A stretch of DNA of 34,550 nt from Chloroflexi bacterium 13_1_40CM_65_17 (GCA_001917815.1 MNES01000007.1:1-34550); one strand, 5' to 3'; shown: positions 18,700 to 23,949, counted from the first letter of the stretch. Made by a program: numbers and translations. Notes: generated by a model not told the origin, from the letters alone.

Positions 18700-20349
18700 T
18701 CAGTGGTGCAACAGGGCGATCTGCACTGCTTTTATCGCCAGGAAGAGCACTGCGATCACGATGTAAGTCGCCATCGTCAACATCGCGACCCTCTTCGGGA
18801 GCGACCACGCCGGCCGTTCGAGCAGGGCGAGGGCAGGCATCCGCCAGTTCTCCTTCTCCGCGCGAGGCATCCCGGGGGTCGGTTCAGCCTTGCGTGCGCG
18901 CCAGACCATCAATCCGGTGGCCACGACCACGACCGCGGCCGTCACGACGCTGAGTAGCGCGAGCAGGTTCGTGACGTTGATGCCGGGAGCTACGGTCGAG
19001 ATGACCAGGATCAGCGAGAGCATGATGAGCACGCTGACGATGATCGTTGCGAGCACGTTCAGCCACAGCCTGTTCACCCACGGGCCGAGAACGGCCCGGT
19101 CGTTACATAAAAGGACGAGGAAGACGGTCGCGCTGGGGAGGAGCGTGCCTGCGAGCGCCTGGACCGCGGTGGTGATGAGTCCGAGTGGGGCGCGCGGAAT
19201 GAGAACTATGCCAGCCGCCAGCGCAACCATCACTGTGTACGATCCGTAGAACAGCTTGGCTTCGCGAATACCACGGTGAAGCGAGTGGCGCAGCCCGAAG
19301 ATGTCGCCGAACGCGTACGACGTGGCCAGCGTCACCGCCGAAGCACCCACGATCGAAGCGTCGAAGAGAAGCAGGGCAAAAATCGTGCCGTCGATCGGGG
19401 ATATATGTGAGGCGAGGCCGCGCGCGATATGAAGCGCGTCCGTGAAACGGCCGAAGTCGCTGGTGCCGGTGAAGGCCGAGGCGGAGGCCATCATGATCGC
19501 CGCGGCGCCGACCACCACCACGAACGCTCCGAGGACGGTGTCCGCCTTCTCGTAGTCGAGCCAGCGCGGGGTGATCCTCTTGTCGATGACGTTCGACTGC
19601 TGGAAGAAGAGCTGCCAGGGCGCGACCGTCGTGCCGACGATGGCGATGATCAGGAGCGCGGCATCGGACGTGAGACCGCCCTGCACCCCCGGCTTGATGA
19701 ACCCCACGAGGGCCGCCGTTGGATCGGGATGGCTGAGCACGAGGAGCGGCAGAACAAGAAGGCTCGCAAATAGGAAGACGAACATCGCCCTTTCCCAGCG
19801 CCGAAAGTTGCCGGTGATCGTGATCGCGATCAGGATCACGGCCGCCAGCGGAACGACGACGTATGGGCTGAATCCGAAGTACTGCCCGGCCAGGCTGACT
19901 CCGATGAACTCCGTGCTGATCGTCAGGAAGTTCAGTACGAAGAGGTCCCCGACCGAGAACCAGCCCCAGAAGCGTCCGAACCGCTCTTTGATCAACCGCG
20001 CATGCCCGACGCCGGTCACCGCGCCGAGCCTGACGACCATCTCCTGGTTGACGATCAGGACGGGTATGAGAATGATGAGGGTCCACAGCAGGGAGTAGCC
20101 GAAGTCCTGGCCGGCCTGCGCGTAGGTGGAGACCCCGCCGGCGTCGTTGTCGCCGACCATGACGATCAGTCCGGGGCCGATGATCGCGGCGAGGGTCAGC
20201 AGGCGCCGGCGCCACGTCCGTCGCGGCGCCACGTCGCTGAGGCGGATCGTCCCGAAGGCGCCGTGGATGTCGCCGAGGTGCGCCTCGTCCAGCACAGCGG
20301 ATGTGGGGACCAGCTGCGAGTCGTGTCTCACCGGCTCGCGCTCGGACAA
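18700..20349 (-). CDS. NRAMP-family transporter with NRMT-like (Mg2+-type) metal site
   Basis: This 549-residue protein has the SLC11/NRAMP fold with at least eleven membrane segments. Helix 1 reads GPGLIVMVGDNDAGG: the canonical DPGN is D69-A-G-G. Helix 6 reads GTTVAPWQ (239-246): the canonical metal-binding Met of the A-x-V-M-P-H-N region is Ala243, His is Trp and Asn is Gln. Loss of that Met is the hallmark of NRAMP-related magnesium transporters, which carry Mg2+ and Mn2+ rather than only soft transition metals (family knowledge). The long N-terminus (1-48) and extra C-terminal helices (after 460) are unusual. It is 9 bp behind a MgtE_N-CBS gene, which strongly suggests magnesium. The start is TTG at 20349. 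Confidence 0.9.
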   Translation of the reverse strand: MSEREPVRHDSQLVPTSAVLDEAHLGDIHGAFGTIRLSDVAPRRTWRRRLLTLAAIIGPGLIVMVGDNDAGGVSTYAQAGQDFGYSLLWTLIILIPVLIVNQEMVVRLGAVTGVGHARLIKERFGRFWGWFSVGDLFVLNFLTISTEFIGVSLAGQYFGFSPYVVVPLAAVILIAITITGNFRRWERAMFVFLFASLLVLPLLVLSHPDPTAALVGFIKPGVQGGLTSDAALLIIAIVGTTVAPWQLFFQQSNVIDKRITPRWLDYEKADTVLGAFVVVVGAAAIMMASASAFTGTSDFGRFTDALHIARGLASHISPIDGTIFALLLFDASIVGASAVTLATSYAFGDIFGLRHSLHRGIREAKLFYGSYTVMVALAAGIVLIPRAPLGLITTAVQALAGTLLPSATVFLVLLCNDRAVLGPWVNRLWLNVLATIIVSVLIMLSLILVISTVAPGINVTNLLALLSVVTAAVVVVATGLMVWRARKAEPTPGMPRAEKENWRMPALALLERPAWSLPKRVAMLTMATYIVIAVLFLAIKAVQIALLHH

Positions 20350-20358
20350 CGGTCTCCT

Positions 20359-21687
20359 CTAGACGCCCGTGCTTGCTTCGATGCGCGCGCGCCACTCTTC
20401 GGGGACGATGGCCTCGATCACGTCGTCCGCGCTGACGGCTCCAAGCAGGTTGCCGGCCGAGTCGGTCACTGCGAGCGCGATCAGGTTGTAGTCCGCCATC
20501 ATCAGGGTCACATCGGTGACATCGGCGCCGGTGGTGACCCGGCAGGTGGCGAGCTCGAGCTCCTCCACCTTGCGGCTCGGTTCCGTACGCAGAAGGTCAG
20601 CTGTGCCGATGCTGCCGATGTACTTGCCATCTTGCTCGGTGATGAAGACCGTGTTCAGTAGCTGGCGCGGAGACTTGTCATCGATGCGCACTGCCTCCAG
20701 CGCCTCGGGGGCCGTGGCGCCTCTGATCACCCAGACGTAGTCGGGGCTCATCATCCCGCCGGCCGTGCTCGGGTGGTACTGCAGTAGCTTGCGCAGCTTG
20801 TGCTGAGCCTGCGGCGACATGAGATCGAAGACGGGTTTCCGCCGCTCTTGATCTAGCTCGCTGAGAAGATCAGCGGCGTCGTCGGGGGCCATGCGTTCGA
20901 GGACCTTTGCCGCCTCTTCGTTAGGCATCGACCTCAGGAACTCGACCTGGTGCTCTGTGTCCAGCTCCTCGAACACGTCGGCGGTCAGCTCCACGTCGCT
21001 TTCCACCGCGTCGAGAATCTCCTCGCCCTCCTCATGCGACGCGCCTTCGACGAGGTCGGCGATCTGAGCCGGGTGCAGCCTGCGCAAGCGCTGCAGCGGC
21101 ATCAGCAGCTTGGCCGTTGGCACGTGCCCGACGAAAGGCTGCACGTCTTTCCAGTCCAAGATCGCGTGCTTGCGCAGGTCCGGCCGGCCGCGGCGGGGCA
21201 CGAGTCGGCGAAGCATTGCCCGCGGGCTGCGGTCGACGCCCATCAGCCGCCATCCGTCCTCGGCAGGTGAAAGGACCAGGTCGTGTGCCTGCACGATTCG
21301 GCCGCGCGTGATGTCCATGAGATGCCGGCCCAGCACGTCGCCGGCCAGCAGGACTTCGCCGGGCCGTCTCTGAAACGCGCCGGTGTCCAGCGTCTGCGTG
21401 TTGAGCCGCACCTCGCCGGGTGCGAGCTTGTCGATGCTCTTGCTGCCGACGAACACGTCGCGGCCGCCGATGCGGACCTTGATCCCGGTCACGGGCGGAT
21501 AGCCGCCACCGCCGCTGTCCAGCTTGACGATCAGGTCTTCCAGCCGGCCCAGCTCTTCGCCGGCCGGGTTGAGGACCGGGCTGCGCAGGAGCTGCGTGAC
21601 CATCACTCTCCGCTTCTCGTGCCCGGTCGCGTGCGGGGTCGCGCCAGATGGCGGACGGCCGTCCGTGGGTTGGTTCTTGTCGCTCAT
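20359..21687 (-). CDS. PRC-barrel/MgtE_N/CBS protein without MgtE channel domain (putative Mg2+ sensor)
   Basis: This 442-residue soluble protein has PRC-barrel-like segments at about 29-95 and 108-155, a MgtE_N superhelix at about 200-300 (LHPAQIADLVEGASHEEGEEIL, MPNEEAAKVLERMAPDDAADLL) and two CBS domains at about 315-370 and 375-430. The linker YHPSTAGGMMSPDYV is the MgtE signature between these parts. In MgtE these domains bind Mg2+ and close the channel when Mg2+ is high (known). The five-helix membrane domain is absent here. The gene lies 9 bp upstream of the NRMT-like transporter, so it is well placed to gate that carrier. The ATG at 21687 is clear. Confidence 0.92.
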   Translation of the reverse strand: MSDKNQPTDGRPPSGATPHATGHEKRRVMVTQLLRSPVLNPAGEELGRLEDLIVKLDSGGGGYPPVTGIKVRIGGRDVFVGSKSIDKLAPGEVRLNTQTLDTGAFQRRPGEVLLAGDVLGRHLMDITRGRIVQAHDLVLSPAEDGWRLMGVDRSPRAMLRRLVPRRGRPDLRKHAILDWKDVQPFVGHVPTAKLLMPLQRLRRLHPAQIADLVEGASHEEGEEILDAVESDVELTADVFEELDTEHQVEFLRSMPNEEAAKVLERMAPDDAADLLSELDQERRKPVFDLMSPQAQHKLRKLLQYHPSTAGGMMSPDYVWVIRGATAPEALEAVRIDDKSPRQLLNTVFITEQDGKYIGSIGTADLLRTEPSRKVEELELATCRVTTGADVTDVTLMMADYNLIALAVTDSAGNLLGAVSADDVIEAIVPEEWRARIEASTGV

Positions 21688-21766
21688 TGGTTTGCCGCTA
21701 ACGCGGTCCTCCCATCCCCGGCCGCGCCACGGCGGTTGCCGCGCGCTCGAGCCGGGCTGGGGTCAA

Positions 21767-22690
21767 TTATCCCGCCGGTGCGGGTTTGACAGCCGGCGGC
21801 TCGACCATCTTCACCGGGTGGTGCTCCGGCGCGTGCTCCTTGACGTACCCGCAGATCTTCACGATCACCTTGTCCTGCGCGGTGAGGTGATGCTGGAGGC
21901 GGCTGCACTCGTGCAGCACCGCTTCGGCATCGAGGTATGTCTGCTGCGCGCGACGATCGCCGGCCTGTCCCAGCACCTCCTGCCCGACCATGATCACGAA
22001 CATGAAGATCAGCTGCACGAGGCTCGATATGAAGAGGAGGAATGCGAACGGATAAGAGTCGAACTTGAGCAACCCGAGCTGGGCCAGCGCGATCCAGCCG
22101 AACTGTCCGACCGCCGCGGCGTAGAACGCCCACATCGTGCCCACTCTCTGGGTGAGGAAGGCCGCGATCTGCCCGTTGACGCCAATGTGCTGGTCTCTCA
22201 CGCGCGGTGGCTCGATCGCATGGCGCTTCTTGATCCAAGGGTGGGGCTGTGACTCGACCAGGCTGATGCCCTGGTTCAGGATGCGGTCCTGTGACTCGAG
22301 ATGTCGGTGGAGCTGCTCCACCTCATGCAGGATCGCCTCGGCATCGTTGTAAGTCGCCACAGCGCGCTTGTCTGCTGTGATGCCGAGAACCTGCTGGCCG
22401 ACCAGGATGATGAATACGAGCAACAGCTGGACCACGTTGCCAAGGAACAGCAAGAACGGGAACGGGTAGGGATCATCGCGGTGGAGCGGTCCCCACGTAG
22501 CCAGGATCATCCAGATCGAGATGAAGACGAGTGTCATGTAGACGACCCACATCGATCCGACTCTCTTTGTGATCCAGGCGGCCAGGCGGCCGTTGAAGCC
22601 GACGCGCTCGTCCGCGACCTTGGGGGGCGCCTTGAGCCGTCTCTTTTCGGTATGAGGGTGGCCCTCGTGGACGAAATCGACATCAGCCAT
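21767..22690 (-). CDS. Membrane protein with two tandem DUF1003 units
   Basis: This 307-residue protein is an internal duplication. Unit 1 (about 27-135) and unit 2 (about 166-273) each have G-x-N-G-x-x-A-A-(W/F), RVGSMW or RVGTMW, a membrane helix, DPYPF or DSYPF, a second helix ending in VGQQVLG or VGQEVLG, then a cytoplasmic helix with TYNDAEAILHE or TYLDAEAVLHE. DUF1003 proteins are normally single-unit, with two helices. The function is unknown, but the family often neighbours magnesium-transport genes in Actinomycetota as I recall. Four membrane helices in total are predicted. It overlaps the preceding CDF-like gene by 8 bp and lies 79 bp before the MgtE_N-CBS gene. Confidence 0.88.
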   Translation of the reverse strand: MADVDFVHEGHPHTEKRRLKAPPKVADERVGFNGRLAAWITKRVGSMWVVYMTLVFISIWMILATWGPLHRDDPYPFPFLLFLGNVVQLLLVFIILVGQQVLGITADKRAVATYNDAEAILHEVEQLHRHLESQDRILNQGISLVESQPHPWIKKRHAIEPPRVRDQHIGVNGQIAAFLTQRVGTMWAFYAAAVGQFGWIALAQLGLLKFDSYPFAFLLFISSLVQLIFMFVIMVGQEVLGQAGDRRAQQTYLDAEAVLHECSRLQHHLTAQDKVIVKICGYVKEHAPEHHPVKMVEPPAVKPAPAG

Positions 22691-23321
22691 CGCGGGAAAT
22701 CCTCCATTCGGCGCTTTCCAGCGCCTCGCGGGTCTCCGGAACGAGCCAGATCAGCAGGGCAAGCGCGGCTACGTACTGGGCCCACCAAAGTCCGAGGAAG
22801 GTGCTCAACCCGATGCCGGCGAGGGTGACGCCGGCCAGGTAGGCGCACGTGTAAGTCTCGGCAATGTCCGCCCGAAGCGCAGCGCTTTCGACGACGCGAT
22901 TGACGCGCGACTTGGCAGCCGCCAGCAGCGGCATCGCGATCACTGCCGTCCCGGCGACGGCCAGGCCCAGGATCGACCCTTCAGGCTTCAATCCCGTCAG
23001 CAGTCCAACAGCCGAGGTCACAACGACATAAGCGCAGAGAAGGATCAGGAGGATTGCCGAGATGCGGGTGGTCCTTCGTTCCAGGCGCTCGACACGGTCG
23101 AGGCTCGTGCCATTCGACTGAGCGATCAGGAGCCACAACAGCACGGCGCCGCTGAGAAGCTCGATGAGCGAGTCGAATCCGAATGCGGTGAGCAGGACGC
23201 TCCGCGCCGCGATGCCGGCGCCGATGGCCAGTACCGCCTCTAAAGCCATCCACACCACAGTCACGACCTCCAGGCGGATTCCGCGCCCAACCGCATCCCC
23301 TCGGGTCGTTGCGGTCGCCAC
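22683..23321 (-). CDS. CDF-like cation transporter, membrane domain only
   Basis: This 212-residue protein has about six membrane helices and no C-terminal cytoplasmic domain. Helix 2 carries FGFDSLIE (D50, E54) and helix 5 carries SAALRADIAETYTCAYL (D152, E155). These correspond to the two metal-binding motifs of cation diffusion facilitators, but with Glu and Cys in place of the classical His and Asp. This is the short CDF-like branch seen in many Actinomycetota. It may export a divalent cation; the metal is unknown. It follows the universal stress gene by 1 bp and overlaps the DUF1003 gene by 8 bp, so it belongs to the magnesium operon. Confidence 0.82.
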   Translation of the reverse strand: MATATTRGDAVGRGIRLEVVTVVWMALEAVLAIGAGIAARSVLLTAFGFDSLIELLSGAVLLWLLIAQSNGTSLDRVERLERRTTRISAILLILLCAYVVVTSAVGLLTGLKPEGSILGLAVAGTAVIAMPLLAAAKSRVNRVVESAALRADIAETYTCAYLAGVTLAGIGLSTFLGLWWAQYVAALALLIWLVPETREALESAEWRISRDG

Positions 23322-23322
23322 T

Positions 23323-23748
23323 CTAGTCGTCGTTGCCGGGCATCATGAGAACGGGGCACTTCGTGCCGTGCACCAGCTTCTTGCCGAGGTCGCCGAACAT
23401 GCGGTCGCTCAGGCCGTGGGGGTGGTGGCTGCCCACGACGATCAGCTCGGCGCCGAATTCCTTGGCCTTTTCGAGGATGAACTCCGCCAGGCGCTCGGGT
23501 CGGTGGCTCTCGATATCGGACGAGGCCCGAACTCCGGCCTCCACCAGCGTTCGCGCGACCTCCTCGCCGAATCGGAAGGATTCCGGAATCGACTCCTTTT
23601 CGAGGGTCGCCACCGACGTGACGACACGCGCCCTCATGTGCACGACGAGCACCGTCGAATCGAAGGCCTTGGCCAGCCCGGTGACCACGGGCACCGTTTC
23701 CTCAGCGTCGTCCGGACTGCCGACCGCCACCAGGATCTTCGAGAACAT
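23323..23748 (-). CDS. Universal stress protein (UspA family)
   Basis: This 141-residue single Usp domain begins MFSKILVAVGSPDDAEETV and contains AELIVVGSHHPHGLSDRMFGDLGKKLVHGTKCPVLMMPG. The ATP-binding loop is normally GxxG-x9-G-S/T; here the last pair is GD, so ATP binding may be weak. The ATG at 23748 has an AGGAGG site 8 nt upstream. The frame stays open further, through tRNA-Arg, but that extension is not real. It is the first gene of the five-gene cluster leading to the NRMT-like transporter, which suggests stress-linked control of metal transport. Confidence 0.9.
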   Translation of the reverse strand: MFSKILVAVGSPDDAEETVPVVTGLAKAFDSTVLVVHMRARVVTSVATLEKESIPESFRFGEEVARTLVEAGVRASSDIESHRPERLAEFILEKAKEFGAELIVVGSHHPHGLSDRMFGDLGKKLVHGTKCPVLMMPGNDD

Positions 23749-23816: not shown

Positions 23817-23857
23817 CCCCTCTCCCCATCGGGGAGAGGGTTAGGGAGAGGGGCGTG
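23817..23857. repeat. Dispersed palindromic repeat, copy A
   Basis: CCCCTCTCCCC-AT-CGGGGAGAGG is a stem-loop, followed by GTTAGGGAGAGGGGCGTG. The same sequence occurs at 29815-29854 and 34073-34113. It is intergenic here, between the universal stress gene and tRNA-Arg. Confidence 0.85.
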
Positions 23858-23876
23858 ATAGCAGTATGAGAATTGG

Positions 23877-23949
23877 CGCCCCGCGAGGGATTCGAACCCC
23901 CGACCCTCTGCTTAGAAGGCAGATGCTCTATCCACTGAGCTAGCGGGGC
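23877..23949 (-). tRNA. tRNA-Arg (anticodon TCT)
   Basis: Reading leftward, acceptor arms GCCCCGC/GCGGGGC pair perfectly, T8-A9 and D arm GCTC/GAGC are normal, the anticodon loop CTTCTAA gives TCT, and the T arm GGGGG-TTCGAAT-CCCTC is canonical. It is 73 nt long with discriminator G, and CCA is not encoded. It decodes AGA. Confidence 0.95.

Follow-up and report, generated by a model that had tools for sequence, protein, structure and literature searches.

We analysed a window of 34,550 nucleotides (the whole stretch of DNA examined here) from the soil bacterium Chloroflexi bacterium 13_1_40CM_65_17 (GCA_001917815.1 MNES01000007.1:1-34550), a member of the Dormibacterota, which the genome-search scheme places in the phylum Chloroflexota (draft genome of 2.5 Mb, 84% complete). 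On the minus strand, from 23748 to 18700, five tightly packed genes encode, in this order, a UspA-like protein, a CDF-like protein, a double DUF1003 protein, a soluble MgtE-type sensor without a channel and a carrier of the NRAMP-related Mg2+ transporter (NRMT) type. The nearest named matches to the locus come from Chloroflexi and Ca. Dormiibacterota metagenome-assembled genomes. An earlier note, made from the sequence alone, had described the same five-gene set; all five open reading frames were found where it had placed them, and Pfam confirmed their domain identities. Three of the spacings it gave also stood (1 bp between UspA and CDF, an 8 bp overlap between CDF and DUF1003, and 9 bp between sensor and NRMT), while the DUF1003-sensor gap, given there as 76 bp, is 79 bp. 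The sensor and the carrier, with the parts of each that the argument needs, are as follows.

20359..21687, minus strand: soluble sensor, 442 amino acids (aa), with a PRC-like N-terminal region, MgtE_N and a CBS pair (Pfam, AlphaFold model)
20770..21078, minus strand: MgtE_N domain of the sensor, residues 204-306 (Pfam; sites per PMC5882242)
20398..20760, minus strand: CBS pair of the sensor, about residues 310-430 (Pfam; ATP site per PMC5529423)
18700..20349, minus strand: NRMT-type NRAMP divalent-cation transporter, 549 aa, TTG start (PF01566 Nramp, E=1.3e-77)
20215..20349, minus strand: N-terminal extension of the NRMT, residues 1-45, with the conserved core HxGDIxGAxGTI (long NRMT clade only)
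20134..20145, minus strand: DxxG half of the NRMT metal-site signature, D69-A-G-G72, in transmembrane helix 1 (TM1) (sequence; signature per PMC8806188)
19621..19632, minus strand: TxxA half of the NRMT metal-site signature, T240-T-V-A243, in TM6 (sequence, alignment invariants; PMC8806188)

The sensor matches PF03448 MgtE_N (2.9e-23), two CBS domains and, below threshold, PRC. Its AlphaFold model (mean predicted local distance difference test, pLDDT, of 89.6) has the cytosolic domains of MgtE as its fold matches in the PDB, and its nearest solved relative is the T. thermophilus channel TtMgtE (2yvy, E=1e-24). The MgtE pore domain PF01769 is not in the protein, and a search of the genome, which is 84% complete, did not find one either, in agreement with the earlier description of an MgtE_N-CBS protein lacking the MgtE channel. 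Compared with TtMgtE (2zy9/2yvy), the sensor thus has the same N and CBS domains but no pore and no plug helix, and it has gained a PRC-like domain. At the residue level, the ligands of three metal sites are retained: D237, D269 and D273 of MgtE_N occupy the positions of TtMgtE E59 (Mg7), D91 (Mg4) and D95 (Mg6), and D422 of the CBS pair occupies that of D247 (Mg4). The Mg5 site is altered, with N401 and E425 at the positions of D226 and D250, and the ATP-site residues Y170, R187 and F227 are replaced by T346, A363 and L402. The same pattern runs through sensors of the window's type: the positions of E59, D91, D95 and D247 are all Asp (109/109 window-type sensors), in keeping with the earlier naming of the protein as MgtE regulatory domains, that of D226 is Asn, that of D250 is mostly Glu, and the ATP-binding Y170, R187 and F227 are lost. 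A second, short type of sensor keeps Y170, R187 and D188 and has Leu at the F227 position. In MgtE itself, mutants at D91/D247, D95 or E59 are impaired in closing the channel or in the change that Mg2+ induces (PMC5882242), and the F227A mutant no longer binds ATP (PMC5529423). Judged by these residues, the sensor is predicted to be metal-responsive and to read ATP no longer.

By both sequence (7qia, E=5e-57) and predicted fold (7qji, TM-score 0.88 by target length, the top match), the nearest solved relative of the carrier is EleNRMT, an SLC11 protein that transports Mg2+, which bears out the earlier naming of the carrier as NRMT-like. Its DxxG and TxxA motifs are those of the DxxG (TM1)...TxxA/T (TM6) metal-site signature that marks NRMTs, a signature without the Met that selects transition metals (PMC8806188), and W245 and Q250 occupy the positions of the usual H+-coupling histidines. 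EleNRMT shares this metal site, the replacement of the H+-pathway histidines and the fold, but it is 438 aa long as against 549 aa here and has neither the N-terminal extension nor the C-terminal linker and helix of the window protein (PMC8806188). Both additions belong to a long clade of NRMTs: the HxGDIxGAxGTI motif is found by strict pattern in 76/109 long-clade proteins, which also carry the C-terminal linker and a predicted twelfth helix, whereas the short NRMT clade lacks both. Residues 31-40 of the extension are modelled with a pLDDT of about 90, and the extension is a candidate docking or regulatory segment.

The two genes are companions well beyond this genome. A full-length NRMT lies no more than 2.6 kb from the sensor in 132 of 140 sensor loci, on the same strand in 128, and the sensor is the upstream gene in 124 of these 128. 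Because the pair recurs in 132 loci, the arrangement is not a matter of chance, and the neighbourhood check that the earlier note had proposed, for sensors without PF01769 adjoining NRAMP genes, comes out as a conserved pairing. The pair spans Dormibacterota/Chloroflexota and Actinomycetota as well as plasmids. A scan of public genomes gave 80 named loci (Dormibacterota, Acidimicrobiales, Solirubrobacterales, Streptomyces, Kitasatospora, Mycobacterium and others), in 78 of which the NRMT adjoins the sensor; one of the two exceptions ends right after the sensor. The partners are also matched by class in nearly every locus, window-type sensors standing with extended NRMTs and short-type sensors with short NRMTs. 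Distances in the sensor and NRMT trees correlate at 0.71 overall and at only 0.33 within the window clade, and for this reason we take the trees to support co-inheritance and not contact. Long open reading frames that might have been sensor-carrier fusions were rejected, as those of L087 and L127 have an apparently spurious frame at their upstream end and that of L134 starts with unrelated sequence resembling an assembly chimera. In four genomes of a sister family (L151-L154), an extended NRMT divergently adjoins a different type of MgtE_N-CBS gene, an apparent partner swap.

Six annotated actinobacterial plasmids among those examined (L206-L211; two typed as conjugative) carry the pair, in either gene order. 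MgtC is adjacent on two of them, and a third has CorA at a distance of about 3 kb; MgtC is also close to the sensor at two more actinobacterial loci. The presence of MgtC and CorA near the pair or the sensor in relatives points to Mg2+. The plasmid neighbours also include ArsR-family regulators or heavy-metal ATPases.

Upstream of the pair, the window holds the following features.

21767..22690, minus strand: double DUF1003 membrane protein, 307 aa (PF06210, two stretches, 2.6e-27)
22683..23321, minus strand: CDF-like membrane protein, 212 aa, without a cytosolic C-terminal domain (weak PF01545 match)
23323..23748, minus strand: UspA-like universal stress protein of 141 aa, with which the cluster begins (PF00582 Usp, E=7.7e-18)
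23874..23949, minus strand: tRNA-Arg(TCT), just upstream of uspA

Among the loci of the window's family, a CDF-like gene is found near the pair in 15/21, a DUF1003 gene in 7/21 and a UspA gene in 5/21. Since the CDF and DUF1003 genes are lineage-limited in the operon, we regard them as accessories, as the earlier note had. The CDF gene is an addition at the level of the family; UspA occurs patchily and was rejected as a conserved part of the operon.

The DUF1003 protein is an internal duplication with halves that are 48% identical. Measured against the single DUF1003 that most relatives have, half A shows 63-66% identity and half B 51-53%. In L032 and L033 the same place is taken by a DUF1003 of quite another kind (about 30% identity), suggesting that DUF1003 was recruited more than once. 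A solved homologue was sought by sequence and none was found. Ahead of the first DUF1003 domain, the proteins of the window (22650-22690) and of L031, L038, L039 and L049 share a conserved N-terminal segment rich in His, VDFVHxxHPHTExR, which is a possible metal contact.

DUF1003 is also linked to PRC-MgtE_N-CBS genes independently of NRMT. Among the best-scoring 30 actinobacterial DUF1003 loci drawn from 297 genomes, 19 have a PRC-MgtE_N-CBS gene directly adjoining and no NRMT within 1.5 kb; in many of these the two frames overlap by 4-11 bp, and the same adjacency was present in the four genomes first examined. Loci at which DUF1003 thus adjoins a second PRC-MgtE_N-CBS gene are L173, L174, L175, L176, L185-L194, L196, L198, L199 and L201-L205. 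The DUF1003-linked sensors keep the Mg4/Mg6/Mg7 residues (22/22) and have lost the ATP site. At L174, the next gene encodes an Mrp-type NTPase; this PRC-MgtE_N-CBS/DUF1003/Mrp cluster resembles the window in its sensor architecture beside DUF1003 and in its conserved Mg-site residues, but its DUF1003 is single and NRMT is absent. The M. tuberculosis pair Rv1231c-Rv1232c is presumably of the same DUF1003/PRC-MgtE_N-CBS type. We found no paper on the function of that pair, and the mentions of DUF1003 that a literature search returned were not about MgtE.

Such adjacency, often with overlapping frames, together with the retained Mg4/6/7 residues, would also suit a reading in which the main partner of the sensor is DUF1003, the two forming a separate membrane device with which the NRMT is merely co-regulated. 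We consider this quite improbable, given that most window-type sensors stand with an NRMT and without DUF1003 (about 9 DUF1003 vs 134 NRMT loci) and that the sensors linked to DUF1003 form a group of their own with lower scores (about 255-303 bits). A broader idea, to which we give less than even odds and hold tentatively, is that the channel-less PRC-MgtE_N-CBS protein may be a general plug-in Mg2+ sensor for at least two unrelated partners, NRMT and DUF1003; DUF1003 would then be a Mg2+-responsive membrane effector, and the window operon a rare site where both share the sensor.

The CDF-like protein only just reaches its family profile (PF01545 Cation_efflux, E=3.5e-6, 27.4 bits against a cut-off of 26.6) and falls far under the TIGR01297 cut-off. 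Canonical CDF proteins have an HD/DD metal site and a cytosolic C-terminal domain; the window protein has neither. It bears an unusual acidic site, D50/E54 with D152/E155/C159, that is conserved across 21 homologues, and no solved homologue was found by sequence. A Chloroflexota genome further removed from that of the window has a CDF-like gene immediately 5' of an extended NRMT (L170:2961-5624), and no MgtE_N-CBS gene is close by. In L038 (2314-4215), a window-like CDF protein is fused to a glycosyltransferase-like domain in one 633-aa frame. An apparent cluster of 31 loci with CDF genes by actinobacterial pairs proved to be an artefact of this L038 protein, as only its glycosyltransferase half was matched, except in L125.

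The tRNA-Arg(TCT) gene is the probable boundary of the gene cluster. Between it and uspA lies a GC-rich inverted repeat (CCCTCTCCCC...GGGGAGAGGGG; 23820-23850) that could be a repeat element or a terminator stem. A promoter and terminator scan of the minus strand gave nothing usable 5' of uspA or immediately after the NRMT gene. The same contig also encodes an LCP-family protein, a PD40/beta-propeller protein and an M32 carboxypeptidase in the flanks, and because these genes recur around the locus in many relatives, we take it to be an ordinary chromosomal locus of the family.

The pairing as such has been described before. MgtE-N fragments are encoded beside most nrmT genes, and a role for them in feedback regulation or as chaperones was proposed by Shin et al. 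2014 (PMC4072509), so the earlier note's claim to a distinct architecture of Mg2+ homeostasis had been anticipated in print. The published mgtE-fragment/nrmT operons and the window alike hold a soluble homologue of the MgtE N-part beside an NRAMP-related Mg2+ transporter, but in the window the sensor has lost its ATP site, the NRMT carries a predicted twelfth helix as well as the N-terminal extension, and genes for DUF1003, CDF-like and UspA proteins have been added. The NRMT structure paper (PMC8806188) does not discuss the fragment, and we found no newer paper on it. What is new here is strict residue evidence for predicted metal sensing without ATP, the clade-specific NRMT extension and predicted twelfth helix, the Mg2+-related neighbours, the CDF gene as a family-level addition and the independent link to DUF1003.

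We favour, with a probability of roughly 0.55, a model in which the sensor gates the NRMT. The locus would serve divalent-cation uptake, combining an NRMT-type SLC11 carrier with a copy of the regulatory domain of MgtE that is a protein of its own. At high cytosolic Mg2+, the metal would connect the N and CBS domains by way of the Mg4/Mg6/Mg7 carboxylates and the sensor dimer would compact; the compact sensor would then dock on the cytosolic face of the carrier, probably at the N-terminal extension, and uptake would slow. As for the other products, we infer that DUF1003 may anchor the sensor or act as its second partner in the membrane, and that the CDF-like protein, lacking its C-terminal domain, may be a lineage-specific accessory or exporter, with some role for UspA as well.

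Several points weigh against this model. The sensor has neither a plug helix nor a part in the membrane, so docking is assumed, and no natural sensor-carrier fusions were found among the loci examined. The class match fails at L105 and in the family L151-L154. An Rfam search of the locus for riboswitches and other RNAs (to E=1) returned only the tRNA and a chance match over it and no M-box, a riboswitch present in only some of the published operons. In the study of Shin et al., the fragment-paired NrmT of A. capsulatum behaved mainly as a Mn2+ carrier: it fully rescued a mutant in Mn2+ uptake, not growth at low Mg2+, and rescued for Mg2+ only at low millimolar concentrations. The transporters were functional without the fragment, and co-expression of the fragment in B. 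subtilis left rescue visibly unchanged and did not improve it (PMC4072509). That co-expression test is not decisive, since a negative regulator is not expected to improve rescue.

The A. capsulatum result and the missing riboswitch, along with the transport of Mn2+ by EleNRMT as well (PMC8806188), also bear on the ion, for which Mn2+ is the main rival. The same pair would then transport and sense Mn2+ (or Mn2+ and Mg2+), and the sensor would guard against transition-metal overload. We judge this rather unlikely: the genome has a separate canonical NRAMP/MntH-like gene elsewhere (G000:C83, 410 bits), the NRMT signature lacks the transition-metal-selecting Met, and four relatives have MgtC adjoining the pair or the sensor, with CorA in the vicinity in another. 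The ion carried by the window protein is most likely Mg2+. The chaperone alternative already raised by Shin et al. (PMC4072509) would have the fragment deliver or sequester ions, as a buffer or chaperone for metal, without gating a transporter. It accords with a sensor that has no membrane part and many invariant carboxylates, but precisely the regulatory sites of MgtE are strictly retained, and sensor and carrier agree in class almost without exception. Both points favour a regulatory partner, and we hold the buffer to be very improbable.

If the sensor does gate the NRMT, one regulatory domain would have been reused for a channel (MgtE) and for a carrier of the LeuT fold (NRMT), and the case would illustrate how control by feedback passes between unrelated transporters. 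The residue pattern, the NRMT extension and the DUF1003 linkage make the question of the MgtE fragment a specific one, and they provide a first functional lead for DUF1003.

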